Shown in pieces: positions 1-33,290 of a stretch of DNA of 40,017 nucleotides. How positions within the stretch are numbered: the stretch's first letter is position 1; each line of letters begins with the position of its first letter. The translations under genes were made by a program, and so were the position numbers. The stretch comes from Flavobacteriales bacterium (lineage in GTDB: Bacteria > Bacteroidota > Bacteroidia > Flavobacteriales > TMED113), in the NCBI GenBank assembly GCA_002715445.1, contig PAZG01000003.1, positions 26,445 through 66,461 of the forward strand, given 5' to 3'. A model generated the notes under the pieces. That model was not told where the DNA came from, made no database searches, and saw only the letters and a program-made list of their open reading frames with translations.

Positions 1-1976
1 CTTAAAGCAAAGTCATGACGAACATATCCGTGAATTTTTCTATCATCATTACTAGTGTTATCTGTAAATTGGTCACTTACATATTTTGTGTCAAAAATTA
101 ATTTTATTTTGGAGTTATAACTATTTATTTTTTTATCCATAACATTCCAAATAATTGATGAGCTACCTATAAAACTAGGTGAGAAAGAAATATTTGTTTT
201 TTCATATTGAATAATTTCTTGTGATCCGGTATCCCAATTATCAATAAATTCAGTGAATGAATTAATTTTGTTTTCACTAACATTAAAGTTAAAATTAAAG
301 TTCAAATCATTTGATATTTTAACTGCGCTACTAAATTCAATACCTATTCTGTAACTATCTTCAACATTTGTTCTTAGTGCGGCTCCAACATCATTTATTT
401 CTCCCGTTAGTACTAGTTGGTTTTTATACAGCATGTGATATAATGTTGTAGAAATATGAATATTTTCATTCATCAAAGAATATTGGATTTCGGTATCGAA
501 TAAGGTTTCATGTTTTGGTTTTCTATAACTATTAATAGCATCAATAAAGTCATTTCTGTTAGGCTCATTATTTGCAATAGAAAAAGATGCAAATACATTT
601 TGATTGTCGCTAGATTTATAAAGCAAACCTATTTTTGGATTGAAAAAATAAAATTTATATTCAGATTGTGGGATAATTAAATTATCATCGGTTCCACTAA
701 TTTTATAATTAATATATCTGTATTGTAAATCACTAAATAAGAAAAGTTTACCTAAATTAAATTTGGTTTGTGAGTATATATTACCATCAATCTTTTCTCC
801 TTTTCCATGATAATATTCGTTGTTTCCATTGATAAAATTAGAAAAGCCTTCAATTGAAATAATTTTTCCATAGTGTAAACCATCGTATTTACTTATTGAT
901 AATCCTGTTTGATTAGAATAAGAGGGCTTTATTAAGTCTGTTTTGAAAATAAACCCAAATAAGTCATTATTTAGCCATTTTCTATTTATAACATTTGTAG
1001 TTGTGTCATAATCAAATCCATAGTTTAATAATGATGCGTCAGAATCAAAGTTTTCATAATAACCTTTTCCTTTAGTATAGTAAAATGTTGATGATGCTTT
1101 AAATGATTCTGAAAAAATACGATGAAAATGCGCTTGATAGTGCATTTGCTTATAATTATCAATTTGATTTTCGTATGTATATGGATTAAAAGTACGTAGA
1201 TGTTTATTATTAATATAGGATGCAGGTACGCCATACCAAGCTTGTCCAGTCTTTTCATGACCTCCAAATGAAATAAGTTCAATCATAGTTTTCTGATTGT
1301 TAAACTTTGTAGATAAGTAATAAGATTTTAAATCAGAATTAGACCTATCTATATATCCGTCGCTTTGAATGTCAGAAATCCTACCGTTAAAAGAAAAATA
1401 ATTTTTTAGTTTACCTGTGCCAAAACCAATAGAACTTTTTTGTGTATTAAATGAACCACTGCTAAAATCAATATTACCATATGCATTTTCGTCATTTTGA
1501 AAAGTAGATATATTAATTTGACCTCCAAATGATCCGCTTCCAATAGTTGAAACCCCAACTCCTCTTTGAATTTGTATATAATTAGATGAACTAAAAATAT
1601 TAGGAATATCTACAAACCAAACGCCTTTTGATTCTGCGTCATTTAATGGAACCCCGTTAATTGTTACACTTATTCTAGTTTGATCAGACCCCCTTAATCT
1701 TAATGAAGAATAACCAATTCCATTTCCTGCATCAGATGTAAATAAAGTTGATGGTGTTAAATTTAATAGAGACGGTATGTCAGAACCCATATTTCTTTCA
1801 GAGTAATCTTCAATATAAATAGTTTCCTTTACTACTGGTTCATCTTCACCAACCTTATTGCTTATTAAATCAACTTTGTCTAAATAATAAATAGTGTCAG
1901 GTTGTGTAATTTCTATTTGTGAAAATAAATTAATGCTTAGTAGAAAGCATACAGATAATAAAAAATTTTGATACAT
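1..1976 (-). CDS. TonB-dependent outer-membrane receptor, 3' end cut by window edge (probable thiamine receptor)
   Basis: Reading leftward from an ATG at 1976 gives an open frame of 658 codons with no stop before the window edge, so the C-terminus is missing. An N-terminal signal peptide (MYQNFLLSVCFLLSINLFSQ) is followed by a TonB plug domain: residues read GYSSLRLRGSDQTRISVTIN, then a NGVPLNDAESKG segment and a GVGVSTIGSGSFGGQINIST stretch, all typical of plug domains. The rest is beta-barrel, including FASFSIANNEPNRNDF, a motif common in flavobacterial receptors. There is no carboxypeptidase-regulatory-like domain at the N-terminus. A TPP riboswitch immediately upstream implies repression by thiamine pyrophosphate, which makes thiamine or a phosphorylated form the likely substrate. 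The receptor class is certain; the substrate is inferred from the riboswitch and the nearby PnuC-type transporter. Confidence 0.93.
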   Translation of the reverse strand, partial: MYQNFLLSVCFLLSINLFSQIEITQPDTIYYLDKVDLISNKVGEDEPVVKETIYIEDYSERNMGSDIPSLLNLTPSTLFTSDAGNGIGYSSLRLRGSDQTRISVTINGVPLNDAESKGVWFVDIPNIFSSSNYIQIQRGVGVSTIGSGSFGGQINISTFQNDENAYGNIDFSSGSFNTQKSSIGFGTGKLKNYFSFNGRISDIQSDGYIDRSNSDLKSYYLSTKFNNQKTMIELISFGGHEKTGQAWYGVPASYINNKHLRTFNPYTYENQIDNYKQMHYQAHFHRIFSESFKASSTFYYTKGKGYYENFDSDASLLNYGFDYDTTTNVINRKWLNNDLFGFIFKTDLIKPSYSNQTGLSISKYDGLHYGKIISIEGFSNFINGNNEYYHGKGEKIDGNIYSQTKFNLGKLFLFSDLQYRYINYKISGTDDNLIIPQSEYKFYFFNPKIGLLYKSSDNQNVFASFSIANNEPNRNDFIDAINSYRKPKHETLFDTEIQYSLMNENIHISTTLYHMLYKNQLVLTGEINDVGAALRTNVEDSYRIGIEFSSAVKISNDLNFNFNFNVSENKINSFTEFIDNWDTGSQEIIQYEKTNISFSPSFIGSSSIIWNVMDKKINSYNSKIKLIFDTKYVSDQFTDNTSNDDRKIHGYVRHDFAL

Positions 1977-2000
1977 AATAGTTCATTTTGTGTTAAACAA

Positions 2001-2062
2001 TTTCTTTTCTAGAATTACCTAGCAGATTCAATGGGTATTATCTCAGCAAAAGCACCCCTCAT
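2001..2062 (-). ncRNA. TPP riboswitch (THI element)
   Basis: Read on the minus strand, the leader holds the conserved TPP aptamer blocks in order: GAGGGGTGC (2060-2052), GCTGAGA (2047-2041), TACCC (2037-2033), TGAATCTG (2030-2023), then a P5 hairpin CTAG-GTAATT-CTAG (2022-2009) with the conserved TAAT in its loop, and AAAAGAAA. P2 forms from GGGT and ACCC. P3 is minimal, with a GC/GC stem closed by TTTT. The aptamer ends about 25 bases before the receptor ATG and no terminator follows it, so control at translation initiation is more likely than attenuation. Base identities are visible directly; the fold was drawn by hand. Confidence 0.92.
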
Positions 2063-2070
2063 GAACGATT

Positions 2071-2078
2071 CAAATTTA
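2071..2078 (-). promoter_or_regulatory. Promoter -7 box for the riboswitch-receptor transcript
   Basis: TAAATTTG on the minus strand matches the Bacteroidota -7 consensus TAnnTTTG exactly. It would start transcription near 2064-2067, right at the first bases of the TPP aptamer. No perfect -33 TTG is present; the closest is TTA at 2099-2097, 18 bases upstream, which lies inside the end of the kinase gene. The receptor can therefore be transcribed separately from the kinase and transporter genes. Confidence 0.6.
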
Positions 2079-2090
2079 CTTGATTTTTTC

Positions 2091-2600
2091 CTAAGTTAAG
2101 TAACTGTTAATAATTTTTTTTGCCATTAAAAATCTTGATTTTTTATCCCCGCAAATTATTGTATAAGATTTATTTTGTAAATATTTTAAATGAATATTGA
2201 ATAATCTCTCTCTATCAAAAGGGTTTTCTCGTAAAGGATCAGGTTCCCATGGAATATCAGGCTTACATAGTAGATAATGGGTATAGTTATCTTTTGTATT
2301 TAATATCCATTCTTCACATTTATTAAATTTTTCTAGGCTCCAAATTTTAATTTCATTGAGAGTTGTGTCGCATATAATTAATTGACTATTTTCTTTGCTT
2401 GCTTGTATTTCTCTTTCTTTTTGTTCTTTTGCAATTTTAATTAAATCGGAATATGTGTATTTTCCATTTACTGTTTTTAAGTACTCTCTTGCAAATTCAT
2501 CTACCAAAATACTTTTTTTGAAATGTGTAGATAATTTTTTTGCTAATGTAGTTTTTCCACTAGACTCAGGACCCGTAATAGCGATTTTAATTTTTTTCAC
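2091..2600 (-). CDS. NadR-like P-loop kinase (AAA_28 family), probable vitamin salvage kinase
   Basis: This small ATP-binding protein resembles the C-terminal ribosylnicotinamide kinase domain of NadR. A Walker A motif (GPESSGKT) lies near the N-terminus, followed by DEFAREYL, IICDTT and PWEPDPLRE, which are signatures of that domain. The nicotinamide-nucleotide adenylyltransferase half of NadR is absent. I place the start at the GTG at 2600, which shares one base with the pnuC stop (TAGTG) and gives 169 residues; a TTG at 2618 is also possible and adds six. The tight junction suggests translational coupling to the transporter. The kinase would phosphorylate the imported vitamin and trap it in the cytoplasm. 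Nicotinamide riboside is the textbook substrate, but the neighbouring TPP riboswitch makes thiamine a serious alternative. Family confident, substrate open. Confidence 0.85.
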   Translation of the reverse strand: MKKIKIAITGPESSGKTTLAKKLSTHFKKSILVDEFAREYLKTVNGKYTYSDLIKIAKEQKEREIQASKENSQLIICDTTLNEIKIWSLEKFNKCEEWILNTKDNYTHYLLCKPDIPWEPDPLRENPFDRERLFNIHLKYLQNKSYTIICGDKKSRFLMAKKIINSYLT

Positions 2601-3259
2601 TATAAATGTTTTTTCCAACTTAAGTATCCATAAGTAGCGAATGGAATATAAAAGAAGAATAAAAAACAGTAAAAATAGTCCCCTGTATATAAATAAAAAA
2701 ATCCACTAATTATATCAATTACAATAAATATTACCCAGCTTTGTATTATTTTTTTTGTAGTCATATACATTGGGATAATATTAAACATAAACATTAGAGA
2801 GTCAAAGAAAGGATATCCACTTTCAATTAGCGTGCCTTGAAAATAATTTAAAATATAATTTAATTCTATTGTTAAGATTAGGCCAAACAATATCCAGAAT
2901 GTCAGATTCTTGTTTGATAAGGATTTGACAATAAATATATTTTCTTCTTTTTTGTTCCACGAGATCCAACCTGAAATTGCAACTACAATAAAAAATAATT
3001 GCATTATGCTCTGTAGGGGTAGATTAATTAAATAAAAAGCGTAACCATTAAGAGATGCAGCAACAATTAAAGCTGGCCAGCAAAGTTTATTTTGCTTGAT
3101 AGATAATATGACATAAATGATACTGAATGTTACACCTAGGAATTCATAAATATGATTTTGATTAATTAGATAATAATTTATACTGTCCCAATCTTTTATT
3201 ATCAAATATAATATTTGAGCAAGCACTATTGATAAGAAAAATCTATTAGTTTTTTTCAT
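2600..3259 (-). CDS. pnuC: PnuC/PnuT-family vitamin transporter
   Basis: A 219-residue integral membrane protein with about seven hydrophobic segments, the usual length for the PnuC family. Characteristic features are NGYAFYLINLPLQS running into a GWISW motif (residues 71-101), and a C-terminal block beginning IDIISGFFYLYTGDY and ending in GYLSWKKHL. PnuC proteins carry nicotinamide riboside by facilitated diffusion, driven by phosphorylation inside the cell; PnuT members carry thiamine. The gene overlaps the phosphopantetheinyl transferase by four bases (ATGA) and the kinase by one base, so the three are probably co-transcribed. The TPP riboswitch and receptor downstream favour thiamine, but the riboswitch does not precede this gene, so the substrate stays undecided. 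Confidence 0.88.
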   Translation of the reverse strand: MKKTNRFFLSIVLAQILYLIIKDWDSINYYLINQNHIYEFLGVTFSIIYVILSIKQNKLCWPALIVAASLNGYAFYLINLPLQSIMQLFFIVVAISGWISWNKKEENIFIVKSLSNKNLTFWILFGLILTIELNYILNYFQGTLIESGYPFFDSLMFMFNIIPMYMTTKKIIQSWVIFIVIDIISGFFYLYTGDYFYCFLFFFYIPFATYGYLSWKKHL

Positions 3260-5736: not shown

Positions 5737-8700
5737 ATGTATAGGTTTATTTCTAGTTTATTACTTCTGTTCTGTATATCAATTTCAGCTACTTTTTCTC
5801 AAAATGCCACTCTAAAAGGTAGGGTTATTGATAATTCAACAGGCGAGTCTATTCCTATGGCGAGTGTTGCTTTATTACAAGATGGAGTCATTATTAACGG
5901 AACATCTACAGATTTCGATGGATATTATACAATAAAGCCAATCCCACCTGGAACTTATAATGTAAGAGTTTCTTTTATTGGTTATCAAGCTCAAGAAATG
6001 GATAAAGTGGTATTATCCCCTAACAAAATTAGTGTTCAGAACTTTAATTTATCAGCTGGTGAGGAATTACAAGAAGTTGTGATTATAGAATCGGATGTAC
6101 CTTTAATTGATCCAGATAAATCTGGTTCTATTAAAACGAAAGAGCAAATAGCGGCTTTACCAACGAGAAATGTTCAATCTGTTGCGGCAACAACAGCGGG
6201 TGTTTTTCAAGCTGATTCGGATGGAGCGCTAAATATTAGAGGTAGTAGAAGTTCTGCTACTGACTTTTATGTTGATGGTGTGAAAATTACTGGTAATGTT
6301 AATGATATTTTACCTCAAGATGCCATTGATCAAATGACAGTTATAACAGGTGGATTGCCAGCACAATATGGAGATGCTACTGGTGGTATAGTTAGTGTAA
6401 CAACTAGAGGGCCATCTAGTATAACTAGAGGTGGCTTAGAGCTTGTAAGTTCATCATTAACAGATCCTTACAATTACAATCTTCTTTCTTTTAATTTATC
6501 AGGCCCATTGTGGAGAAAAAAAGATGAAAACAGAACTCCGATTTTAGGTTATTTGATCACAGGTGAATACTCATTTACTGATGATCCAGACCCATCAGCA
6601 GTTGGTGTTCCACAGTTAAAATCAGGAATCCTTGAAGATATCCAACAAAATCCTTCTGAGTTTGTTGGTATACCAAATTTCAGAGATTATACAACTGTAT
6701 ACTCAATTAATAGAGCAGAATATTTAAGGGAGTCTGATTGGGATATAGTTGATGTGAAGCCTAATGCTGGTGAAAAGAACTTAAGATTACAGGGTAAATT
6801 AGATTTTTCTATAAGCTCAGATATCAATTTAACTATTGGAGGTTCTTTTTCTAACAGAAAATTGATGGTTTCTGATGTTAGAAAATATCTTTTAAACTCT
6901 GATGCAAATTATGAATATCTCTTGGACAACTTTAATATTTATGGTCGAATCCAGCATAAATTAAGTGGTAATGATGAAGGAGCAGTTTTAAAAAATGTTT
7001 TTTACACATTACAGGCTGATTACTCTAAATACAGTGAGGTTTTACATGACCCGCGACATGGAGAAAACTACTTTGCATATGGCTATGTAGGTAAATTTTC
7101 TCCAGAAACGAACTATGATTATTCGAATACTCCCTTTGGTTGGGAGACTAAGGATATTATGGTAGTACAGGAAAATGGTGATACAATTTACGAAACTCAC
7201 ACAGGGGCTGTCTTACAGGAATATATTACATACGACTTTACACCCGGCTCTGACAATCCTAATGCTGCCAATTTTACTCAGCAATACTATGATTATTTTC
7301 ATCAATATTTACCTGGTCTGAACCCTTCAATGGATCATGTTGTATTTGGAGGAGGTCTTAGAAATGGTGATGATCCTCCTTATGTTTATTCTATGTGGTA
7401 TAACTCAGGACAGCAAAATTATACTTTTAGAGATATCGATGACATAAGAAGAAGAATTGTAGGTTCTGCTTCTGCGGATATAGGAAATCATGCTATTCAA
7501 TTTGGTTTTGAATATGAACGTTTTGAGAGATCATATTACTCTGTTTATGGGCCAGAGTTATGGGCTCTAGGTAGACAACTTGCAAATCAACATTTACAAA
7601 ATAAAAGGTACTTTATTGATGATCAACTTCAATGGCAATTTGGTGAAGATTTTTTAATTTTTTCAAGTGAATATATAGTATCACAAGAGCAATACTCAAC
7701 ATTTGGTCAGAATATTAGAGAGAAATTTAATATTCCGGATAATGAATGGGTATATATTGATGAATACACTCCGGATCAATTATCTATTGACATGTTTAGT
7801 GCGGATGAGTTGTTAGATAACGGAAATTTAAGTGTTTATTACTTTGGTTATGATTATAAAGGAAATCCTGTTTCAGGTCAAAGGGTATCTTTTGATGAGT
7901 TTTTGAATGATCAGGATAATGATGGTAATTTTACTAGAAGAATATCTCCTTTTGAGCCAATATATACAGCTGGTTACATTCAAGATAAATTTTTCTTTGA
8001 TGATATAGTTTTTAATGTTGGATTGAGGGTTGATAGATATGATGCAAATCAAGAGGTTTTAAAAGACAAGTACTCTCTTTTCCCAGTTAGAACTGCTCAA
8101 GAAGTGGACCCTTCTCTTAATCCAACAGTGGTTCCGGATGCTAGTACGGGGTCATACTCACATCCATCTAATATAGGAGATGATTTTGTTGTTTATGCAA
8201 ATTCAATTAATGATCAAAATCAAATAACAGGTTATAGAGATGGTGATAATTGGTATGATGCAACAGGTCTTCCAATTACAGATCCCTCAGTACTTAACTT
8301 AGGTAGTGGTGTTATACCATTTTTACAAGATCCAGATCATGTATCTAAGCCAAATGGAGGAATGACAGGAGAAGCCTTTGAAGACTATACACCACAAATA
8401 AGTGTTATGCCAAGAATATCCTTTAACTTTCCTATTTCTGACCAAGCAATGTTTTTTGCTCACTATGATATATTGACTCAAAGACCATCATCATCAGGTA
8501 GAATGAATCCTTATGATTATTTATATATAGCATCTAGATCTTCGGGTATTCAAAATCCTAATTTATTGCCTGAAAAGACAATTGATTATGAAGTTGGTTT
8601 CACTCAAGCATTAACGGATCACTCAGCAATCACAATAAGTGCATTTTATAGGAATTTGCAAGACATGATTCAAGCAACAAGAATTAATTATGCATATCCA

Positions 8701-9465
8701 ATTACCTATACTACATACGATAACATAGATTTTGGAAATGTTAAAGGCTTTTCGTTTGGTTATGATTTAAGAAGAACTAATAATGTGACTTTTAATGCCA
8801 ATTATACACTGCAGTTTGCAGATGGAACAGGTTCATCATCTACAACAGCTGCTGACTTAGTAAATGAGGGTTTTCCAAATTTACGTGTAACTCTCCCATT
8901 AGATTTTGATCAAAGACACAACCTTACTGCTAATATTGACTACAGATATGGTTCAGGAATTAACTATAATGGGCCTACTCTTTTTGGAGGAAAAAAAATT
9001 CTTTCGGATTTTGGTGTTAATCTAATGCTAACTGCAGGTTCAGGAACTCCTTACAGTCAGCAATCTAATGTTACACAAGAAGCACAGTTTGGTATTCCAA
9101 TCAAAACAACTCTTGAAGGTACTGTTAATGGATCAAGAAAACCATGGTCTTTCCGTGCAGATTTAAAAGTTAATAAAAAAGTTAATTTTTCTTTAGGTGA
9201 AATTGCTGGTGATGAGAGAAAACTGTCAATGAATGTATATGTTTGGGTTCAAAATTTACTTAACACAGATAATGTAATTAATGTATACAGATATACTGGA
9301 AATCCAGATGATGATGGATATGTTTCATCTGCTGAGGGTCAACAAGATATATCTCAACAGATAGATCCCGCTGCATTTGTTGATCAGTATGGGGTAAAAG
9401 TTAATAATCCAAATAATTATAGTAGACCAAGAACTATTAGAGTTGGTGTAACAATGAATTTTTAA
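5737..9465 (+). CDS. TonB-dependent receptor with carboxypeptidase-regulatory-like domain
   Basis: A 1242-residue outer-membrane receptor. It has a signal peptide ending ATFSQ and a carboxypeptidase-regulatory-like beta-sandwich at about residues 24-110 (ATLKGRVIDNSTGESIPMAS, DFDGYYTIKPIPPGTYNVRV). The TonB plug follows at about 125-240 (ALNIRGSRSSATDFYVDGVK, GGLPAQYGDATGGIVSVTT). The long barrel has SusC-like C-terminal strands such as LPEKTIDYEVGFTQAL and ends RPRTIRVGVTMNF with the terminal aromatic expected of outer-membrane barrels. No SusD partner follows. Instead the next gene, three bases on, codes for a giant exported protein, and a PorV-like barrel comes after that. The substrate is unknown; the context suggests a role with the exported protein rather than classic SusCD glycan uptake. 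Confidence 0.94.
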   Translation: MYRFISSLLLLFCISISATFSQNATLKGRVIDNSTGESIPMASVALLQDGVIINGTSTDFDGYYTIKPIPPGTYNVRVSFIGYQAQEMDKVVLSPNKISVQNFNLSAGEELQEVVIIESDVPLIDPDKSGSIKTKEQIAALPTRNVQSVAATTAGVFQADSDGALNIRGSRSSATDFYVDGVKITGNVNDILPQDAIDQMTVITGGLPAQYGDATGGIVSVTTRGPSSITRGGLELVSSSLTDPYNYNLLSFNLSGPLWRKKDENRTPILGYLITGEYSFTDDPDPSAVGVPQLKSGILEDIQQNPSEFVGIPNFRDYTTVYSINRAEYLRESDWDIVDVKPNAGEKNLRLQGKLDFSISSDINLTIGGSFSNRKLMVSDVRKYLLNSDANYEYLLDNFNIYGRIQHKLSGNDEGAVLKNVFYTLQADYSKYSEVLHDPRHGENYFAYGYVGKFSPETNYDYSNTPFGWETKDIMVVQENGDTIYETHTGAVLQEYITYDFTPGSDNPNAANFTQQYYDYFHQYLPGLNPSMDHVVFGGGLRNGDDPPYVYSMWYNSGQQNYTFRDIDDIRRRIVGSASADIGNHAIQFGFEYERFERSYYSVYGPELWALGRQLANQHLQNKRYFIDDQLQWQFGEDFLIFSSEYIVSQEQYSTFGQNIREKFNIPDNEWVYIDEYTPDQLSIDMFSADELLDNGNLSVYYFGYDYKGNPVSGQRVSFDEFLNDQDNDGNFTRRISPFEPIYTAGYIQDKFFFDDIVFNVGLRVDRYDANQEVLKDKYSLFPVRTAQEVDPSLNPTVVPDASTGSYSHPSNIGDDFVVYANSINDQNQITGYRDGDNWYDATGLPITDPSVLNLGSGVIPFLQDPDHVSKPNGGMTGEAFEDYTPQISVMPRISFNFPISDQAMFFAHYDILTQRPSSSGRMNPYDYLYIASRSSGIQNPNLLPEKTIDYEVGFTQALTDHSAITISAFYRNLQDMIQATRINYAYPITYTTYDNIDFGNVKGFSFGYDLRRTNNVTFNANYTLQFADGTGSSSTTAADLVNEGFPNLRVTLPLDFDQRHNLTANIDYRYGSGINYNGPTLFGGKKILSDFGVNLMLTAGSGTPYSQQSNVTQEAQFGIPIKTTLEGTVNGSRKPWSFRADLKVNKKVNFSLGEIAGDERKLSMNVYVWVQNLLNTDNVINVYRYTGNPDDDGYVSSAEGQQDISQQIDPAAFVDQYGVKVNNPNNYSRPRTIRVGVTMNF

Positions 9466-9468
9466 TTT

Positions 9469-12400
9469 ATGATTCTTATGTATAGAAAAAATATATATTT
9501 TTTAGTAGCAATATTTTCTCTTTTTATTTTTCAGAGTACGATTGCAAAAGATAATGTCCCTAATCCTAATAATAATAGTGATAATGGTTTAAGGGTTGTT
9601 GCTGCAGGTTGCTTACCTGCCACATCATCTACTGAACTCAATATTAATAATGTTCGAACATTAATTTTAGGAGGTGGTGATATGTGGTGGGATTTAAATA
9701 ATGCTGTTTATGAGATTCCTCAAGGAAGTAATAAACATTCAATGTTTGCAGGAGCTTTATGGATAGGTGGATTGGATGATCAAGATAATTTAAAAGTTGC
9801 TGCCATGACTTACAGGCAGGATGGAAATGATTTTTGGCCCGGCCCATTAAATGGCGATCAAATGAGTAACGAGTATGGATCAGTTTCTGCTTCTACATGT
9901 GCAGAATTTGATAAACATTATAAAATTACAAGACAAGAGGTTGAAGATTATGTAGCTTATACAAATTGTCTTTCTGATCCTGAATGTGATATGTCAACTT
10001 ACGCAGATTATGTTCAACCCTCTATTATTAGTGATTGGCCTGCTTCAAGAATTGATGTTGATGGGACATATGATTATTTAGCTCCTTACGTAGATGTTAA
10101 CGGAGATGGAGATTATACAGTAGGATTAGATTATCCAGGCTATGATTTAGAAGGGGTAGCAGATTGTAAAACTGATGATGTGCTTTTTGGTGATCAAACT
10201 CTGTGGTGGGTTTTTAATGATAATGGAAACATTCATACAGAATCTGGATCAGAATCTGCTATTGGATTAGAAGTTCAAGCCCAGGCATTTGGCTTTGCTA
10301 CGAATGATGAAATAAATAATATGACTTTTTATAGTTATAAAATTATTAATAGATCAACAGAAACCCTTAATGAAACTTATTTTGGTCAGTGGGTTGATCC
10401 AGATTTAGGTAATTATCAAGATGATTATGTTGGTTGTGATGTAGAATTAGGATTAGGTTATTGTTATAATGGTGATGCAGATGATGATGGAGCTTATGGT
10501 TACAATAATGATTCTGACGATCCTCCACCTGCGATTGGAGTTGATTTTTTCAGAGGACCCCTTGCTGACACGGGAGATCAGTTAGATAACGATATGGATG
10601 GTCAAATTGATGAACCGGGAGAGCAGATAATTATGTCAAAGTTTGTTTATTATAACAATGATTTTTCGGATCATGGTAATCCCGAGGATGCTATCCATTA
10701 TTATAATTATTTAAAAGGTATATGGAAAGATGGAAATCCTATGACTTATGGTGGTACTGGTTGGGAGTCTGGTAATCCTGAATGTAACTTTATGTTTCCT
10801 GGAGATACTGACCCTGATTTTAATGATGTTTGGACAGAAATCACAGCAGGAAATGATCCAGCAGATAGACGTTTTTTACAATCGGCTGGTCCTTTTACAT
10901 TAGAACCAGGTGCTGTAAACTATATAACAATTGGTGTTGTTTGGGCACGTGCTTCTGAAGGAGATAATTTTGCTTCCGTTGAAAAAATGAAGTTAGCTGA
11001 TAGAAAAGCTCAAACTTTATTTGATATTTGTTTTGAAGTAATTGATGGACCAAGTGCACCTGATGCTCAAATTGTTGAACTTGATGAAGAAATTATTATT
11101 AATTTAACTTACTCAGAAAATTCAAATAATTTTGCTGGTTCCTATGCGGAAGAAGATCCTTTTATTTCAGATGTTTTAGCTGATTTAGACGGAGATGGTC
11201 AGTTTGAAGATATACCTATTGATAGAACTTATAAATTTGAAGGATACCAAGTATTTCAGTTAAAAGATCAGTATGTTTCTGTTACAGATTTATATGATCC
11301 AAATAAAGCATATATGATTTATCAATGCGATATTGAGAACTATAGAGGTACAAATATAGATGGTTCTCCAACTTCTACATTTGAACCAGGTGAAAATCCA
11401 AATCCGATATCAGATTTAGTAAACTATAATTTAGATGAATCCGTAGGTCCCGGAATTTTTGTCCCTCAAAATATGACTTTAGGTGCAGGTAATGAAGGAG
11501 TATTTCATTCAATTCGAGTAACTGAGGATAAATTTGCTACAGGAAATACTGATCTAGTAAATAATAAACCTTATTATTTTACGGTAATTGCTTATGCTCA
11601 CAACGAATATATTGAATACGCTGCTGATGTTCCGTTTAATAGCCTAGATCCTTATGCTCCAAGTTCATTAGGTCAGAAAAAACCTTATTTAGCAGGTAGA
11701 AAAAATATCAGAACTTATACTGCAATCCCTCATAAAGTAGAGGCAAGCGGAAGTTTAGTTAACTCAGATTATGGAACTCGACCGTCTATAATTGGTGTTG
11801 CTGGAAGTGGAAATGGAGGTTTTAATTTAAGTATTACTGAAGAATGTAAACAAGAAATTGTTGAGAATTACTCTGTTAACGAAATACATTATGAAAAAGA
11901 TCGAGGTCCAGTTGATATTTCTGTGATAGATCCCTTGTCTGTTCCCTTGGGAGATTTTGTTTTTGAGATGCGAGATCCAATAATCAACGAAGAAGGTTTT
12001 GTTACTGATACAAGATGGGCTTTAATGCAAATTGATGGTACTGATACAATTGTTGTTGAATCTTCGAACACAATGCTTGAACAGGTTCAACAAGTTATTC
12101 CGGAGTGGGGCTTAGCTGTTAATTTACAGCCAATATTTTCACCTGCATCGGAAAGAGTGACAAATAAAGGTTTTATTGACATAGAATTTAGCTTTTCTGG
12201 ATTGGAGGATTTAGAACAATCTGATATATTAACTCAGATTAATCAGGAAAGTCCGTTTGTTCCTTTTGAAGACTTCGATGGTTTCCCCCAGTATTTTGCT
12301 TTAACTGGTGCCTTTGATTGGATAAGATCTGGAACACAGTCTTTTTCAGCTGATGACCCAGTTCTTTCTCAATATAGCATATTTAATGATATAGGGGCAC

Positions 12401-13629
12401 CAGATTCCCCTGAAGATAAAGATGCTGTTTATGAAGTTTTAACATCAGGCCTTATTGCGCCATACAAGTTAGTTTCAAGTGATTATAGACACGAATACGA
12501 AGCAAACGACTTCACTTTTAGAGATACTGTTGGTTGTGGTCCGGCTTTTAAAGATTTTAGAAGTGATTGCTCTCTTGATAGTCTAAATAATGTAGATATT
12601 ATTTTCACTTCTGATAAATCTCTTTGGACTAGGGTTCCTATTCTTGAGATGGCTGAGGGTATAATTGAAAATGACGGTACTTTAACTCCAGCGGGGTTAG
12701 GTGACGCTGAAAAGTGGGATATAAGAACTAGTAATTCTGTGGATAAAAATGGACAGGATGATGGTTCAGGAACTGGATGGGGTTGGTTTCCTGGTTATGC
12801 AATTGATGTTTCAAAAGGAATAAGGTTAGATTTAATGTTTTCTGAAGATTCTTCTTTCCCAGAACAAAATGGAGCAGATATGCAATTTAATCCAACCAAT
12901 ATAGTAGCTGAATCAATAAATCTGAATGACATTAGTTCTGGAATAGCTGATTGGTCCTTATTTTCTGATGTTAGTGGAGATGATATTTCACTTGGTGGTA
13001 AACACTGGATTTATGTTTTAAACACTCCTTATCAAGGTGATGATGAAACTTTAAATACTAATTATGATTTGTTTGAAAATTGGCACTTAGCTTCTAGAAA
13101 AAAGAAACTAATTCCTAAGATTACATGGGTAATGCCTGCCATGGGTAATTTCTCAAATAATCCACAAGAATGGACTGAATACGGTGTTAGTTTAAGAGTT
13201 ACTGAACCTTATGGTGTTAGAAATTCTGATGAGAATAATGGAGTTTCCAAATATAGATTTAACACATCTGACATCCTAACTGTTTTAAATGATGAGGCAA
13301 CTCAAAAGGAAGGTCTTGACATGGTCAACATTGTTCCTAATCCTTATTATGGGGTTTCTGGGTACGAAACTGGTCAAGTAGATAACAGAGTTAAAATAAT
13401 TAATTTACCTAAGAAATGTACGATTTCCATCTACTCTATAAATGGTTTATTAATTAGGCAAATAAAGAAAGATGCTGAAACTACTGAGTACGAATGGGAT
13501 CTTAAAAATAGATTTGGCATCCCTGTTGCTTCTGGAGTTTATATAATTCATATAGACGCCCCAGGAATTGGTGAAAAAGTTATTAAATGGTTTGGATCAA
13601 TGAGACCTATTGATTTAGATTCTTTTTAA
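9469..13629 (+). CDS. Giant exported protein with T9SS-type C-terminal domain
   Basis: A 1386-residue secreted protein (1383 if the ATG at 9478 is used, which gives MYRKN, much like the MYRF start of the gene before it). A signal peptide ends near TIAKD. The N-terminal region has GGGDMWWDLNNAVYEIP, HSMFAGALWIGGLD (around 90-103) and DFWPGPL, which I associate with large T9SS-exported Bacteroidota proteins of unknown function. Four Asp/Asn-rich loops resemble calcium-binding repeats: DVNGDGDY near 208, GDADDDGAYG near 334, DNDMDGQIDE near 373 and DLDGDGQFED near 573. From about residue 1284 a T9SS/FlgD-like domain starts (VPNPYYG, TISIYSINGLLIRQI, GIPVASGVYIIHI), followed by an unusual tail ending in MRPIDLDSF. 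Probably routed through SecA and then the T9SS. No enzymatic motif recognised. Confidence 0.85.
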   Translation: MILMYRKNIYFLVAIFSLFIFQSTIAKDNVPNPNNNSDNGLRVVAAGCLPATSSTELNINNVRTLILGGGDMWWDLNNAVYEIPQGSNKHSMFAGALWIGGLDDQDNLKVAAMTYRQDGNDFWPGPLNGDQMSNEYGSVSASTCAEFDKHYKITRQEVEDYVAYTNCLSDPECDMSTYADYVQPSIISDWPASRIDVDGTYDYLAPYVDVNGDGDYTVGLDYPGYDLEGVADCKTDDVLFGDQTLWWVFNDNGNIHTESGSESAIGLEVQAQAFGFATNDEINNMTFYSYKIINRSTETLNETYFGQWVDPDLGNYQDDYVGCDVELGLGYCYNGDADDDGAYGYNNDSDDPPPAIGVDFFRGPLADTGDQLDNDMDGQIDEPGEQIIMSKFVYYNNDFSDHGNPEDAIHYYNYLKGIWKDGNPMTYGGTGWESGNPECNFMFPGDTDPDFNDVWTEITAGNDPADRRFLQSAGPFTLEPGAVNYITIGVVWARASEGDNFASVEKMKLADRKAQTLFDICFEVIDGPSAPDAQIVELDEEIIINLTYSENSNNFAGSYAEEDPFISDVLADLDGDGQFEDIPIDRTYKFEGYQVFQLKDQYVSVTDLYDPNKAYMIYQCDIENYRGTNIDGSPTSTFEPGENPNPISDLVNYNLDESVGPGIFVPQNMTLGAGNEGVFHSIRVTEDKFATGNTDLVNNKPYYFTVIAYAHNEYIEYAADVPFNSLDPYAPSSLGQKKPYLAGRKNIRTYTAIPHKVEASGSLVNSDYGTRPSIIGVAGSGNGGFNLSITEECKQEIVENYSVNEIHYEKDRGPVDISVIDPLSVPLGDFVFEMRDPIINEEGFVTDTRWALMQIDGTDTIVVESSNTMLEQVQQVIPEWGLAVNLQPIFSPASERVTNKGFIDIEFSFSGLEDLEQSDILTQINQESPFVPFEDFDGFPQYFALTGAFDWIRSGTQSFSADDPVLSQYSIFNDIGAPDSPEDKDAVYEVLTSGLIAPYKLVSSDYRHEYEANDFTFRDTVGCGPAFKDFRSDCSLDSLNNVDIIFTSDKSLWTRVPILEMAEGIIENDGTLTPAGLGDAEKWDIRTSNSVDKNGQDDGSGTGWGWFPGYAIDVSKGIRLDLMFSEDSSFPEQNGADMQFNPTNIVAESINLNDISSGIADWSLFSDVSGDDISLGGKHWIYVLNTPYQGDDETLNTNYDLFENWHLASRKKKLIPKITWVMPAMGNFSNNPQEWTEYGVSLRVTEPYGVRNSDENNGVSKYRFNTSDILTVLNDEATQKEGLDMVNIVPNPYYGVSGYETGQVDNRVKIINLPKKCTISIYSINGLLIRQIKKDAETTEYEWDLKNRFGIPVASGVYIIHIDAPGIGEKVIKWFGSMRPIDLDSF

Positions 13630-13658
13630 ATAAATATTGATTTGTAAAAAATAAATAT

Positions 13659-14711
13659 ATGAGCAAAATAAATAAAATATTAGGGTTAATTAGTTTAATA
13701 TTTTTGTTAGTATTTCCTTTTCAATTGCATTCCCAAGAGGGTGAGGAAAGAGTTGGTCAAGCAGGAGCATTTGAATTATTAATAAACCCATGGGCTAGAA
13801 GTTCAGGTTTGTCTGGTGCTAATACAGCCTCGGTTAGAGGAATAGAATCAGTTTATTTAAATGTAGCTGGTTTAACTGGTACAGATAAAACAGAAATTAT
13901 GTTTTCAAGCGCGGCTTGGTTTGGTGATATTTCTATTAATAGTTTTGGTGTTGCTCAAAAAGTAGGAGATACAGGAGTTATGGGAATATCTTTCATGTCA
14001 TTAGATTTTGGAGATATTATGATTACTACAGAAGAAAACCCAAATGGTGGTGTTGGAACTTATTCACCACAATTTATGAATTTAGCCCTTTCTTATGCTA
14101 AAAAATTTACAAATAGAATTTCAGGTGGTTTTACTGTCAAATTGATTTCTGAATCCGTATCAAATTTATCAGCTAATGGTTTTGCGTTTGATACTGGAAT
14201 ACATTACGAGACAGGTTCTAGAAATCAAGCGAAATTTGGAATTACTTTAAAAAATATTGGCCCTGGAATGGCGTTTAATGGAGATGGAGATGATGTTACT
14301 CTAAACGGATCAAATGGTTATGATCAAACATATGAAATTCGTTCTGCAGAATTTGATTTACCTTCTTTATTAAATATTGGAGGATCATATGATTTTCTTT
14401 TTTCTACTGACCATAGGTTAACTGTTTCTGGTAATTTTACTTCTAATTCTTTCTCTAAAGATCAGATACTATTTGGTACAGAATATGGTTATAAAACTTT
14501 TTTGATGTTAAGAATGGGATATTCATATGAAAAAGGAATTTTTAATGACTTTGATAACGGAAGAACAACTGCCTTTACAGGATTTTCCACGGGTTTTTCA
14601 TTTGAAATACCTGTTTCAGAAAATGGGTCAAGTTTTGGTTTAGACTATTCATTTAGACCAGCCAGTCCCCTTAGCTCTGTACACACTATAGGTGCTCGTA
14701 TAGACTTATAA
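13659..14711 (+). CDS. PorV/PorQ-family outer-membrane beta-barrel protein
   Basis: A 350-residue protein with a signal peptide ending LHSQ. The mature start (GQAGAFELLINPWARSSGLSGANTASVRGIESVYLNVAGL) is the typical opening of PorV/PorQ (UPF0164-like) barrels, and amphipathic strands run to a terminal IGARIDL. True PorV is coded separately at 33328, so this is a paralogue. PorV carries C-terminal-domain cargo from the T9SS translocon to the PorU sortase. By analogy this protein may handle the large exported protein coded just upstream, 29 bases away. That role is inference from gene order; the family assignment is from visible motifs. Confidence 0.85.
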   Translation: MSKINKILGLISLIFLLVFPFQLHSQEGEERVGQAGAFELLINPWARSSGLSGANTASVRGIESVYLNVAGLTGTDKTEIMFSSAAWFGDISINSFGVAQKVGDTGVMGISFMSLDFGDIMITTEENPNGGVGTYSPQFMNLALSYAKKFTNRISGGFTVKLISESVSNLSANGFAFDTGIHYETGSRNQAKFGITLKNIGPGMAFNGDGDDVTLNGSNGYDQTYEIRSAEFDLPSLLNIGGSYDFLFSTDHRLTVSGNFTSNSFSKDQILFGTEYGYKTFLMLRMGYSYEKGIFNDFDNGRTTAFTGFSTGFSFEIPVSENGSSFGLDYSFRPASPLSSVHTIGARIDL

Positions 14712-14743: not shown

Positions 14744-15220
14744 ATGGCTAAAATATCTTATTACAGTCAAGAAGCATATGATAATCTAAAAAAAGATTTG
14801 GATAATCTTAAAAATGTGGAACGACCTAATATTTCAAATGAAATTGCTCAAGCTAGAGACAAAGGGGATTTATCTGAAAATGCGGAGTATGATGCAGCTA
14901 AAGAAGCCCAAGGTCTATTAGAAATGAAAATAGCTGATTTAGAAGAAAAATTGTTATATGCTAGGGTAATTGATACATCAAAACTTGATACGGATAAAGT
15001 TTTATTGTACTCAACTGTTACAATAAAAAATGTTAGCACTGGCTCTATTTTAACGTACACTTTGGTTTCTGACACTGAAGCTGATTTATCAAATAATAAA
15101 ATATCTGCAAACTCACCCATAGGAAAGGCTTTATTAGCGAAAAAAGTATCAGATACTGTAAATGTTACTGTCCCATCTGGTGAAATTTCTTTTGAAGTTT
15201 TAGATATTACTAGACAATGA
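14744..15220 (+). CDS. greA: Transcription elongation factor GreA
   Basis: At 158 residues the protein is the standard length of GreA, which rescues backtracked RNA polymerase by stimulating cleavage of the nascent transcript. The coiled-coil N-terminal domain carries the signature ARDKGDLSENAEYDAAKEAQ at about residues 36-55, including the acidic tip residues. The C-terminal FKBP-like domain has NSPIGKALLAKKVSDTV, ending in IsFEVLDI-type strands. It starts 32 bases after the PorV-like gene and overlaps the HIT gene by four bases (ATGA), so greA and HIT are translationally coupled. Confidence 0.97.
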   Translation: MAKISYYSQEAYDNLKKDLDNLKNVERPNISNEIAQARDKGDLSENAEYDAAKEAQGLLEMKIADLEEKLLYARVIDTSKLDTDKVLLYSTVTIKNVSTGSILTYTLVSDTEADLSNNKISANSPIGKALLAKKVSDTVNVTVPSGEISFEVLDITRQ

Positions 15221-15609
15221 GCAGTGTTTTTACAAAAATAATTAATAAAGAGTTACCTGCCTACATAGTTTCTGAAGACTCGGAAAACATTGCTTTTTTA
15301 GATATTTCTCCAGTCAAAAAAGGTCATGTATTAGTTGTGCCAAAATTAGAAGTTGATAATATTTTTGAATTGCCGTCAGAAAATTACCTTTCTTTGTTTT
15401 TATTTGCAAAAAAAGTGTCCAAGGGGATTGTCAAAGTAATCCCGTGTAATAGAATTGGAGTTTCTGTAATTGGCTTAGAAGTTCCTCACGCACATATTCA
15501 TTTGATACCCATTAACAAATTAGATGATATTAATTTTAACAATAGAATTAATATGAATTCAGATGAGTTGCATCATTTATCTCAAAAAATTTCTGAGCAA
15601 ATTAATTAA
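15217..15609 (+). CDS. HIT-family nucleotide-binding hydrolase
   Basis: A 130-residue histidine-triad protein. Family hallmarks are FTKIINKELPAYIV at the N-terminus, FLDISPVKKGHVLVVPK in the middle, and the triad PHAHIHLIP with histidines at 91, 93 and 95; the middle one is the expected nucleophile. HIT proteins hydrolyse nucleoside phosphoramidates, dinucleotides or aminoacyl-adenylates; the substrate here cannot be told. The start overlaps the greA stop (ATGA), and the 3' end overlaps the convergent ruvC gene by eight bases. Confidence 0.95.
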   Translation: MSSVFTKIINKELPAYIVSEDSENIAFLDISPVKKGHVLVVPKLEVDNIFELPSENYLSLFLFAKKVSKGIVKVIPCNRIGVSVIGLEVPHAHIHLIPINKLDDINFNNRINMNSDELHHLSQKISEQIN

Positions 15610-28305: not shown

Positions 28306-29295
28306 TTAAAACTTAGGACATTTTATAGGATTTAGAATAATCTTTTTTGGGATACATGGTAATTGTATCCTTAAGGATATTTCGTGAGCCCCGCCCGTCG
28401 AATTACTTAAACTTGAAATGGTAAAATCATAACTATATCCAATTTTTATTGCTTCCTTTTGGAATCCAATTACAAAAAACATAGCATCAGAATTAGCAAA
28501 ACTTCTTCTATAACCTAACCCACCAGAAACAATATTATTTGTAATGGTTGCGCCTAAATTTAATTGTTCAGTTTCGGCTTGTTGTTTAAATAAAAAATTT
28601 GGTATTAAATAGGTTGATCCAGAAAAAAGCCCAGTAGTTGATGTAATTGCTTCATTAATTTTTATAACAGCTCCTCCATGAACTGTTTTTTTCATTGAAA
28701 GGTTACCGTTAATTAAAAAAGCATCTTCAGGCTCTGTTATATGGTGTGCAACTAGGCCCAAGAAAAAGGAGTTTGATGATATCAACGTACCAATTGAAAT
28801 ATCAAGATAGTTTTTACTTATAATTCCTGAGTTTAAAATATCGTCTTGTGATGGGTAAACAAAACCTGCAATTGGGTCAATTTGGTCTCCAAACCATAAA
28901 TCTGGATTTAAACTTCTTTGGTTAGATCCGACTTGAAAACCAGTTAGTAAATCGATTTTTCTTGCGATTTTAGTATGATAAGAATAAATTAAATTTACAG
29001 AAGTACTTTTAATGACGCCATTGCCAGCATCATCATGAATCACACTTAAACCAATACCTCCGTGAATAGGTTCTAAGGTCAAGTCAAAAGAAAAACTGTA
29101 TGTCTCAAAACTTCCAGCCAGCATTGGCCATTGATTTCTGTAATTTGTAATTATTCTAGGACAATATTCCCCCCCTGCTAGTGCCGGATTTAAATAAACC
29201 GGATTAGCATAATATTGTGTAAAGTGTGGATCTTGGCCATATGAACATATAGAAAATCCGAAAATGGCTAAAAAAAATATTATATTTTTTTTCAT
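28306..29295 (-). CDS. PorP/SprF-family T9SS outer-membrane protein
   Basis: A 329-residue beta-barrel protein with a signal peptide ending CSYGQ. The mature start (DPHFTQYYANPVYLNPALAG) is the clear PorP/SprF signature, followed by YRNQWPMLAGSFETYSFSFD, GGIGLSVIHDDAGNG and repeated beta-hairpins. In Flavobacterium and Porphyromonas such proteins work with the T9SS: PorP in the core machine and SprF in export of the adhesin SprB. The C-terminal end after IQLPC is short (IPKKIILNPIKCPKF). No adhesin gene of the SprB type lies alongside; the neighbour is gldJ. Which subfamily it belongs to cannot be settled by eye. Confidence 0.9.
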   Translation of the reverse strand: MKKNIIFFLAIFGFSICSYGQDPHFTQYYANPVYLNPALAGGEYCPRIITNYRNQWPMLAGSFETYSFSFDLTLEPIHGGIGLSVIHDDAGNGVIKSTSVNLIYSYHTKIARKIDLLTGFQVGSNQRSLNPDLWFGDQIDPIAGFVYPSQDDILNSGIISKNYLDISIGTLISSNSFFLGLVAHHITEPEDAFLINGNLSMKKTVHGGAVIKINEAITSTTGLFSGSTYLIPNFLFKQQAETEQLNLGATITNNIVSGGLGYRRSFANSDAMFFVIGFQKEAIKIGYSYDFTISSLSNSTGGAHEISLRIQLPCIPKKIILNPIKCPKF

Positions 29296-29435: not shown

Positions 29436-32400
29436 ATGTCACTAAAAAAAACAATTTTTTTTATTTTTTTCACAGTAAATCTTTTTGCTCAGAATTTTTA
29501 CAGAGAAATTGATATAAATGGATATTCAGAAATAATTTATCAAAATGACAAATTACTTGTGCCTACTTTTTCAAATGGGGTAAAGATTAATGATGAAAAC
29601 ATATATTTTCATTATTATGAGAAAATTCCTATTAATTCCTCTGATTTTGAGGTAACTTTAGAAAATCTAAAATTTGAAAACTTAAAAAGTTTTAATACGA
29701 GTATTAAAATTCCAGAAAATTTAGAACATGAATTTATTGTTTTATCTGAGAAGAAGAAAAATTATATTGGAGTAAAGATATATCCTTACATCAAAAAAGG
29801 GTCAGAGACTCTTATTTTAAAGTCTTTTACGATAAATGCAAAGCCAAAACAATTAAAATCAAAGTCCAAAAAAACAAATTTTTCATCTAATTCTAAATTA
29901 AATGAAGGCCAGTGGTTTAAAATAGCTGTAGAAGAAAATGGTATATATTCATTAGATTACAATTTTCTTTTAAACTTAGGTCTCGATTTAAATCAAATAA
30001 ATCCTAAAAACATAAGGATTTATGGTGGTCATGTTGGAATGCTTCCTGAAGAAAATAATATTTTTAGAGTGGACGATATTCAGGAGTTGTCCTTATATTT
30101 TGAGGGAGACGATGATAATAATTTTGAGCAAAATGAAAAAATATTATTTTATGGTCAAAGTCCTCATACGTGGGAACACAATGAAAAATTAAATGTGTTT
30201 AATCATACATATAATAGATATTCAGAACAGACCTACTACTTTCTTAAAATTGATAATGTAAATCATAAGATTGCACAGGAATCAGGTTATAGTTTAGATC
30301 AAATTAAATCGACACCTCAAAATGAAATAAATAATATATACAGTTTCAAAGAAAGAGTTTTTTATGAGAATGATTTATATAATTTAGTAAGCACAGGTCA
30401 ACAGTGGTTTGGTGAATATTTTGGAAGTATTAATCAACTTTCTATTTCTCTTGATGAGGGTCAATATAACTTAAGTGACTCCATTTATTTTAGAGCAAGG
30501 GTTGCTGCAAGATCATCTATTCTTTCAAAGTTTGAATTTAGTTTTTCAGCTGGATTAAATTCATTTTGTGAAATCTCAATTCCCCCAGAAACATCTGATG
30601 ATTATTATTATGAATCTAATGAAGCTGAATTTTTCTTAACTCCAAATAATAATCAAAATAATTGGCCAAATAGTTGGAATGGTAATGTTGTAGTTAATTA
30701 TCAAAATAATGGTAATCCATCAGCTCTATCTTGGTTAGATTTTATCGAAATTAACTTTAATAAAAATATTCAGTTCTCTGAAAATATTAACCAATTAAAT
30801 TTTAGATCTTTTCCTAAAAATGAATCTAACTTAGATATTACATATTTACCTAAAGAAACAAATTTAGTTTTTGATGTTACTGACCCATTTAATATGAAAA
30901 AAATTAAATTGTATGATTCATTTGACAATCAAAATTTAATTTTCGCTTTGGACTTGCAGTATTTATCTGAGTTTGTATGTTTAAAAGAAAACTCATATAA
31001 AACACCAATTTTTGTTGAGGAATTAAATAACCAAAATTTACATTCTATTAACCCAGCGGACTTAATTATTATTACTCACAATGATTTTATGCCTCAAGCT
31101 AATGAACTTGCTAATTTTCATCAAACTACAAATAACATTGATGTTATAGTTGTTTCTGTTGACCAAGTTTATAACGAATTTAGTGGAGGATCTCAAGACC
31201 CTGTTGCTATAAGAGACTTTGTAAGAATGTTATATAATAAAGCTGATAACGATGAACAATTGCCAAAGAATTTATTGTTATTTGGTGATGCCTCTTTTGA
31301 TTACAAAGACATAACTAGTAATAACACGAATTTTGTACCAACTTACCAGTCATATAGATCTGATAATATTAAATTATCATATTGCTCAGATGATTTTTTT
31401 GGGATGTTAGATGAAAATGAGGGTAGTGGCTCTACTTTAATTTATGATTTAATGGATATAGGTGTTGGCAGAATACCTGTTCAGTCAAGCACTGAGGCAG
31501 AGCAGATGGTTCAAAAAATTATTAATTATTCATCTATAAATAGTAGAGGTAATTGGAAGAACAAAGTGTGTTTTATTTCAGATGATGTTGATGACAATTG
31601 GGAGGTTAATCTTTTAATTCATGCCGATGCTTTGGCAACTAAAGTTGATACAAATCATCTTTGGATTAATATTGATAAAATATATACGGATTCTTATCAA
31701 CAAGTATCTACCGCTGGAGGAGAGCGTTATCCTGATGCTCAACAGGATATAATTGAGTTAATTGAAGAAGGAGCTTTAATTGTAAATTACATTGGGCATG
31801 GAGGGGAAGTCGGTTGGGCTTCAGAAAGAATTTTAGAATTAAGTGACATAAATGAATTTGAAAATTTCGATCAACTATCTGTTTTTGTTACAGCAACATG
31901 TGAGTTTTCTAGATATGATGACCCAAACAGAGTTTCTGCGGGTGAACAACTACTATTAAATCCTAATGGAGGAGCGATATCATTATATAGTACATCAAGA
32001 ACGGTTAATGAAAGTAGTGCGTATTATATTGTGGATGCCCTATATAATTATATTTTAAATTCGGATCTAAATTTAACTATGGGAGAAATAATGCGTCTTG
32101 CTAAAAATGACCCCTCATTAGGAATTACTGTTAACAAAAGAAAATTTGCTTTTTTAGGTGACCCTGCCATAAAAATATCTTATCCAAAATATGATGTTAA
32201 AAATAAACAAATAAGATTATTAAATAATAATCAAGATAAAGGGATCCCATCTGATACAATAAATGCACTTAGCATAGTTAAAATTACAGGAGAAACCACC
32301 TATGGGGGGTCTGATCAAAAAATCCCATTGAATGGAATTTTAAATGTAACTGTATTTGGAAAAGAAAATGTTCAAAATACTTTGAATAATAATGGATTAT

Positions 32401-33290
32401 TGGAATCTCCATTTTCATATATTTCACAAAAAGATGTTATTTATAAAGGAAAGACAACTGTTGTTAACGGTGAGTTTGAATATAGTTTTATTGTCCCTAA
32501 AGATATACCAATGGAATTTGGTAAAGGTAAATTAAGCTATTATGTGAATGATATTGAATTAGGAGACGGTGCAGGAAATTTTGAAAATTTTTATGTCGGA
32601 GGAGTTAACTTAAATGCAAAATCAGATAATTTAGGTCCAGAAATACAATTGTTTATTAATGATACCACATTTGTTTCAGGTGGATATACTGATGATTCTC
32701 CTAGTTTATTAGGCCTTTTGTTTGATGATTCGGGAATTAATACTGTAGGCACAGGTATTGGTCATGATTTAGTAGCTATATTGGATGGTGTAACTAATAA
32801 TCCCTACATTTTAAATGATAATTATGAGTCCGATTTAAATACTTATCAATCTGGAAGGGTTAATTTTGAATTTTCTAATATTGAAGAAGGTCCTCATACT
32901 TTAAGTTTAAAAGCTTGGGATGTTTATAATAATTCAAGTACTAAACAAATATCATTTATAGTTGCTAAATCAGAAGAAATAATAATTAAACACTTATTAA
33001 ATTATCCAAATCCATTTTCAAATTTTACTAGGTTTTCTTTTGAGCACAATAGACCTAATGAGATTATCGATGTTTTGATTCAAGTTTTCTCTGTAAGTGG
33101 AAAATTAGTAAAAACTCTATCCAGTGAAATAATTAATTCTGGCTTTAGAGATGATTCAATAGTTTGGGATGGTTTTGATGATTTTGGTGACAAATTAGGC
33201 AAAGGTGTTTATATTTACCGAGTTACTTTAAAATCAAAAAATGATGGCTCAAAGGCTGAAAAATTTGAAAAACTTGTAATATTGCAATAG
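29436..33290 (+). CDS. porU: T9SS sortase PorU (C25-like cysteine peptidase)
   Basis: PorU cuts the C-terminal domain from T9SS cargo at the cell surface and attaches the mature protein to the outer membrane. The 1284-residue protein has a signal peptide (ending NLFAQ), an N-terminal beta-rich region, and a gingipain-like catalytic domain at about 530-920. Its segments include LLFGDASFDYKD, the catalytic histidine in VNYIGHGGEVGWA (H788) and the nucleophile in TATCEFSRYDDP (C822), 34 residues apart as in gingipains. Its C-terminus carries its own T9SS-like domain (LNYPNPFSNFTRFSFEHNRP, GKGVYIYRVTLKS). porV follows 37 bases later, the conserved order in Flavobacteriales. Confidence 0.96.
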   Translation: MSLKKTIFFIFFTVNLFAQNFYREIDINGYSEIIYQNDKLLVPTFSNGVKINDENIYFHYYEKIPINSSDFEVTLENLKFENLKSFNTSIKIPENLEHEFIVLSEKKKNYIGVKIYPYIKKGSETLILKSFTINAKPKQLKSKSKKTNFSSNSKLNEGQWFKIAVEENGIYSLDYNFLLNLGLDLNQINPKNIRIYGGHVGMLPEENNIFRVDDIQELSLYFEGDDDNNFEQNEKILFYGQSPHTWEHNEKLNVFNHTYNRYSEQTYYFLKIDNVNHKIAQESGYSLDQIKSTPQNEINNIYSFKERVFYENDLYNLVSTGQQWFGEYFGSINQLSISLDEGQYNLSDSIYFRARVAARSSILSKFEFSFSAGLNSFCEISIPPETSDDYYYESNEAEFFLTPNNNQNNWPNSWNGNVVVNYQNNGNPSALSWLDFIEINFNKNIQFSENINQLNFRSFPKNESNLDITYLPKETNLVFDVTDPFNMKKIKLYDSFDNQNLIFALDLQYLSEFVCLKENSYKTPIFVEELNNQNLHSINPADLIIITHNDFMPQANELANFHQTTNNIDVIVVSVDQVYNEFSGGSQDPVAIRDFVRMLYNKADNDEQLPKNLLLFGDASFDYKDITSNNTNFVPTYQSYRSDNIKLSYCSDDFFGMLDENEGSGSTLIYDLMDIGVGRIPVQSSTEAEQMVQKIINYSSINSRGNWKNKVCFISDDVDDNWEVNLLIHADALATKVDTNHLWINIDKIYTDSYQQVSTAGGERYPDAQQDIIELIEEGALIVNYIGHGGEVGWASERILELSDINEFENFDQLSVFVTATCEFSRYDDPNRVSAGEQLLLNPNGGAISLYSTSRTVNESSAYYIVDALYNYILNSDLNLTMGEIMRLAKNDPSLGITVNKRKFAFLGDPAIKISYPKYDVKNKQIRLLNNNQDKGIPSDTINALSIVKITGETTYGGSDQKIPLNGILNVTVFGKENVQNTLNNNGLLESPFSYISQKDVIYKGKTTVVNGEFEYSFIVPKDIPMEFGKGKLSYYVNDIELGDGAGNFENFYVGGVNLNAKSDNLGPEIQLFINDTTFVSGGYTDDSPSLLGLLFDDSGINTVGTGIGHDLVAILDGVTNNPYILNDNYESDLNTYQSGRVNFEFSNIEEGPHTLSLKAWDVYNNSSTKQISFIVAKSEEIIIKHLLNYPNPFSNFTRFSFEHNRPNEIIDVLIQVFSVSGKLVKTLSSEIINSGFRDDSIVWDGFDDFGDKLGKGVYIYRVTLKSKNDGSKAEKFEKLVILQ

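Follow-up and report, generated by a model that had tools for sequence, protein, structure and literature searches.

Within the window (the whole stretch of Flavobacteriales DNA analysed, 40,017 nucleotides), three large genes follow one another on the plus strand. The first (5737..9465) encodes a TonB-dependent receptor of 1242 aa with a signal peptide, a CarboxypepD_reg-like domain (residues 25-116), a plug (residues 129-218) and a barrel; the second (9469..13629) encodes BIG, a predicted T9SS-exported surface protein of 1386 aa with a Sec-type signal peptide; and the third (13659..14711) encodes PVL, an outer-membrane barrel of 350 aa from the PorV/PorQ family (FadL-type) and the predicted carrier or anchor of BIG. 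An earlier note on this DNA gave precisely these open reading frame lengths, common strand and intergenic gaps (3 and 29 bases). The best-conserved part of BIG spans residues 28-750 (9550..11718, plus strand), where identity to relatives is 43-85%, and a C-terminal T9SS-type Ig-like domain (CTD) of the PorZ/PorU kind runs from about residue 1275 (13291..13626, plus strand). Downstream on the same strand, greA (14744-15220) and a HIT-family gene (15217-15609) are neighbours kept in Bacteroidia, and probably represent synteny rather than parts of the system. The window also encodes a PorU sortase (29436-33290, plus strand, 1223 bits), PorV (33328-34605, plus strand, 485 bits) and, by eye, a PorP-like protein (28306-29295, minus strand), with PorQ and SprA encoded elsewhere in the same genome (1.09 Mb, 68.65% complete, 39 contigs), outside the window. 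A separate row on the minus strand at positions 1-3259, comprising a TonB receptor (~743 aa), a NadR-like nucleotide/vitamin kinase (175 aa) and a PnuC-like transporter (219 aa), was judged by eye as likely to serve vitamin salvage (of thiamine or nicotinamide riboside).

Pfam models identified the CarboxypepD_reg (E 1e-17) and TonB plug (E 4e-11) domains of the receptor, and the SusC/RagA model TIGR04056 gave no match to the window copy; two distant trio receptors scored 52 and 74 bits against its cut-off of 368. No Pfam family covers the 1386-aa BIG outside its CTD, and the same search returned no SusD family match. BIG carries no SusD/RagB domain, in agreement with the earlier statement that none of the three proteins is a SusD, and its assignment as a SusD or a known enzyme was dropped for want of any family match. 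BIG was modelled with AlphaFold2 as two halves, both of good quality (mean pLDDT 81.5 for the N-terminal and 79.7 for the C-terminal half). A fold search with the N-terminal half returned weak similarity to beta-sandwich domains of GH15, GH94 and GH116 enzymes (E 2.5e-6 to 1e-3, TM-score ~0.25), and a solved-structure sequence search with BIG profiles gave no match. Read by eye, the signal peptide has no cysteine at the likely cleavage site, and the sequence AAGC (residues 45-48) is well removed from the hydrophobic core; BIG is apparently not a lipoprotein. Its closest relative, 95% identical, comes from a marine Flavobacteriales metagenome bin.

The T9SS-like C-terminal domain noticed earlier in the middle protein is real, though below standard model cut-offs. 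Against the type A models it scored 16.8 bits for PF18962 (cut-off 27) and 22.3 bits for TIGR04183 (cut-off 23), with 20 bits for a distant BIG copy against the latter, and the type B model TIGR04131 found no match in BIG. The PorZ model matches the same C-terminal stretch (E 1.2e-8 in the window copy, 1.1e-11 in the distant copy), and a fold search with the model of the C-terminal half recovered PorZ (E 3.7e-7, 28% identity over 116 columns), PorU (E 8.5e-4) and the translocon-bound NucA CTD (E 4e-3). By these profile and model comparisons, the BIG CTD appears to resemble the domains of PorZ and PorU more closely than those of ordinary cargo. It has a conserved extension (MRPIDLDSF) past the usual end, and 92 of the 107 complete BIG copies terminate in F or Y, whereas ordinary T9SS cargo of the same genome ends without an extension of this type. 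As far as sequence conservation can tell, such a C terminus fits, and suggests, a retained domain. Both marks of T9SS cargo, a Sec signal (by eye) and a C-terminal Ig-like domain, are present in BIG, and the phyletic pattern links the family to the secretion system: among 296 sampled Bacteroidota genomes, SprA was encoded by all 146 BIG-positive genomes and BIG by none of the 68 SprA-negative genomes, a pattern uncorrected for shared ancestry and in which many SprA-negative genomes belong to a few families.

That the last gene is a PorV paralogue, as previously proposed, was borne out by its match to the PorV/PorQ family model NF033709 (153.5 bits, cut-off 90). Scores against the equivalog models all fell below cut-off (67 bits of 250 for PorV, 81 of 220 for PorQ and 59 of 325 for PorV2), as did that against the PorP family (15.7 bits, cut-off 90.55), and a solved-structure sequence search with PVL found PorV. 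Since the genome has its own PorV and PorU in the window and PorQ and SprA elsewhere, PVL is a third paralogue and not the house-keeping carrier. Phylogenetic analysis of 109 barrel sequences (PVLs sampled through their link to BIG, PorV2 left out, and six PorQ rows dropped because the single-sequence search missed them) resolved PVL, PorV and PorQ as three separately branching groups, each supported by an SH-aLRT of 99, and the branching order inside the PVL clade mostly mirrors taxonomy. The three separate clades mark PVL as an ancient third branch rather than a recent copy of PorV. PVL relatives also showed weak matches to the FadL-type families Toluene_X and BamG.

A scan of bacterial and archaeal genomes for BIG returned 79 loci, all but one under titles of Bacteroidota groups; the exception, labelled Sphingomonadales, has an ordinary trio, and its label may be wrong. 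Among the 116 BIG genes of at least 900 aa obtained by profile searches over these loci and further loci from other families and classes, the receptor lay directly upstream of 110 and the barrel directly downstream of 103, with absences beyond contig ends numbering six for the receptor and four for the barrel; median gaps were 25 and 21 bases. The three families are thus anything but rare neighbours across Bacteroidota, the check that the earlier note had proposed, and the trio was complete at 102 of the 116 loci, most of the rest being truncated by contig ends. In Bacteroidia, greA follows the trio in 65 of the 67 loci with room downstream, which identifies the window copy as an old, vertically inherited locus, the Bacteroidia version. 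Natural BIG-PVL or BIG-receptor fusions, sought as proof of contact, were not found. BIG genes without partners are few (L050, extra copies in L068, and L136). At L136 (genome G124), two tandem, near-alike BIG genes have a receptor and a barrel nearby on the opposite strand, the sole clear rearrangement of the trio seen, and at L068 (9672-17872) a complete trio is followed by several more BIG-like fragments, apparently a decayed or frame-shifted extra copy.

The trio is no isolated case: it is widespread and often multi-copy. In five closed, distantly related genomes belonging to other Bacteroidota families, a gene with a BIG-type CTD stood directly upstream of 43 of the 66 PorV/PorQ-family genes, weak CTD matches included, against ~0.06 expected by chance. 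The receptor lay directly upstream in all 20 divergent BIG-barrel pairs inspected in five closed genomes, so that the trio as a whole constitutes a multi-copy module. Cross-genome best partners agreed for any two trio genes 60-66 times in 96, where 24.6 agreements would be expected, and within genomes the similarities of the three genes co-vary (rho 0.59-0.85), with receptor similarity tracking both PVL (rho 0.85) and BIG (rho 0.66). From this partner agreement and co-variation we conclude that the trio is inherited as a module. Copy numbers, based on loose candidate counts uncorrected for shared ancestry, were also correlated: a proxy for BIG copies rose with PorQ-model matches (rho 0.92, 61 genomes), and the number of BIG candidates was inversely related to that of SusD candidates (rho -0.75, 228 SprA-positive genomes), genomes with more trios having fewer SusD and those with at least 13 BIG candidates having a median of zero. 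The SusD model PF07980 had no match in the 68.65%-complete genome of the window.

As a raw count, T9SS tails occur in 14 of the 56 proteins that neighbour the 20 paralogous trios. Neighbours included two T9SS-tailed proteins, one with GH16 plus malectin and one with CBM9, and an SSF (sodium-solute) symporter at L229; a T9SS-tailed CBM20 protein beside the trios of L225 and L231; a T9SS-tailed CBM4_9 protein with the solute-binding SBP_bac_1 at L234; and DcuC carriers with S51 peptidases at L232 and L233. These paralogue loci resemble polysaccharide or peptide utilisation loci in which the trio takes the place of SusCD, and they point to a role in nutrient uptake, a function absent from the earlier note. 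Neighbours of this kind occur at some paralogues only, all in other classes; the window copy and the main copies of other classes adjoin house-keeping genes. ABC sugar transporters, guessed from gene sizes to be conserved neighbours, were discarded because the sequences look like house-keeping genes. Downstream of the main copy in other classes (L124, L128, L129, L132 and L149) we also observed, by eye, a conserved run of a GWxTD-type protein, a lipid A acyltransferase and a heptosyltransferase, which suggests synteny of house-keeping genes for the outer membrane or LPS.

The trio has components in common with several characterized systems, yet for SusCD, for the PorV/PorQ equivalogs and for type B pairs alike it lacks a defining feature that was tested. 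Like SusC/SusD, it comprises a TonB receptor with a CarboxypepD_reg domain and an adjoining gene for a cognate surface protein, is multi-copy, and in some copies lies beside glycan-binding and glycan-cutting proteins. Unlike SusC/SusD, its surface partner, neither a SusD nor, apparently, a lipoprotein, is predicted T9SS cargo accompanied by a barrel of its own, its receptor is not a SusC by the curated model, and its distribution is roughly complementary to that of SusD. The PorZ-PorQ and PorU-PorV pairs likewise combine a surface protein bearing a CTD of the same kind with a PorV/PorQ-family barrel, and porU lies directly upstream of porV in the window, matching the BIG-PVL order; PVL, however, belongs to a third clade, BIG has neither sortase nor PorZ body, and a TonB receptor is nearly always added. 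In SprB-SprF (type B with PorP/SprF), a cargo gene is also directly followed by that of a dedicated anchoring barrel, but the trio CTD is type A/PorZ-like and its barrel is PorV/PorQ-like rather than PorP-like. BamG-BamH of the Bacteroidota BAM offers a further parallel, a FadL-family barrel holding a surface canopy beside another outer-membrane barrel, although BamH is a lipoprotein, neither a TonB receptor nor the T9SS is involved, and the similarity of BamG to PVL is remote (E 6e-8 in a distant copy). Membership of the trio in the Bacteroidota BAM complex was rejected after literature comparison.

The reading we favour, with somewhat better than even confidence, is that the trio is an ancient TonB uptake module, analogous to SusCD, whose T9SS-exported surface partner is held by its own PorV-like barrel, and which looks like a stand-in for the SusC/SusD pair in genomes where SusC/SusD is rare. 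Sec would take BIG across the inner membrane, and the T9SS channel SprA across the outer. The CTD of BIG would then be received by the cognate barrel encoded directly downstream, in the way PorZ pairs with PorQ and PorU with PorV, and BIG would probably remain bound, with the barrel as its membrane anchor. So anchored, BIG may sit on or beside the receptor encoded upstream and capture or pass on ligand in the role of SusD. The precedents for this explanation come from published work (PMC5562754, PMC9143113, PMC12618676); in one of these papers, PorV and PorQ keep PorU and PorZ, respectively, at the cell surface (PMC5562754). PVL is a separate ancient clade that accompanies BIG, and the private PorV-like shuttle of the earlier note is plausible, but its closest precedents, PorZ-PorQ, PorU-PorV and SprB-SprF, point to a permanent anchor no less than to a shuttle.

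Alternatively, BIG and PVL could form a structural or adhesive T9SS cargo-anchor pair, with the TonB receptor a mere co-transcribed neighbour or a signalling receptor. The BIG-PVL link does rest on a strong analogy to PorZ-PorQ and PorU-PorV, the single-copy Bacteroidia trio adjoins greA rather than transport genes, and a 705-706-aa paralogue of the BIG N-terminal domain has a type A-like tail and no adjacent PVL. Under this explanation, which we regard as unlikely but the strongest of the alternatives, one would have to set aside the receptor at 110/116 BIG loci and 20/20 divergent paralogues, its similarity tracking PVL and BIG (rho 0.85 and 0.66), and the carbohydrate or peptide utilisation neighbourhoods of several paralogues. 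More doubtful still is PVL as a transient private shuttle that lets BIG go, with the BIG CTD cut by PorU and BIG attached to LPS or shed like type A cargo. Homology of this CTD to those of type A (TIGR04183, 22.3/23 bits) and the PorU/PorV pair encoded in the same window speak for such processing; against it, the CTD is nearest to PorZ and PorU, which are barrel-held at the surface (PMC5562754), it is conserved to its last residue (F/Y in 92/107), unexpected for a discarded tag, and as a shuttle PorV by itself would do. We regard as very improbable a scheme in which PVL, acting together with the receptor, transports a hydrophobic ligand as FadL-like proteins do, and BIG is simply a secreted protein of the ordinary kind: the weak Toluene_X and BamG matches of PVL relatives agree with it, but PVL falls within the PorV/PorQ family, its nearest relatives are carriers, and the strict BIG-PVL pairing and copy-number match would be left without explanation.

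The trio is a real, conserved and apparently undescribed system; a search covering the open-access literature found no description of it. We consider it about evenly balanced whether the trio is older and more widespread in the phylum than its single-copy Bacteroidia form suggests, and represents a third class of T9SS cargo-barrel pairs. The uptake module, if true, would join the T9SS and TonB uptake, two signature machines of the phylum, in one module, would account for the 10-18 PorV/PorQ paralogues and few or no SusD in many deep-branching Bacteroidota, and would supply a testable function for a very large family without a Pfam body model and for one functionally unassigned PorV/PorQ clade.

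Just left of the window, on the minus strand (G000:C3:23463-25580; L118:9464-11581), lies the 705-aa paralogue of BIG. It matches BIG at 63% identity over its first 500 residues, continues with calcium-binding-type DxDxDG repeats and an ordinary type A-like T9SS tail, and has no adjoining PorV-like barrel. The same short paralogue (705-706 aa) occurs near the trio in L012, L013 and L014, and provides a natural experiment on the contribution of the BIG-specific tail and barrel.
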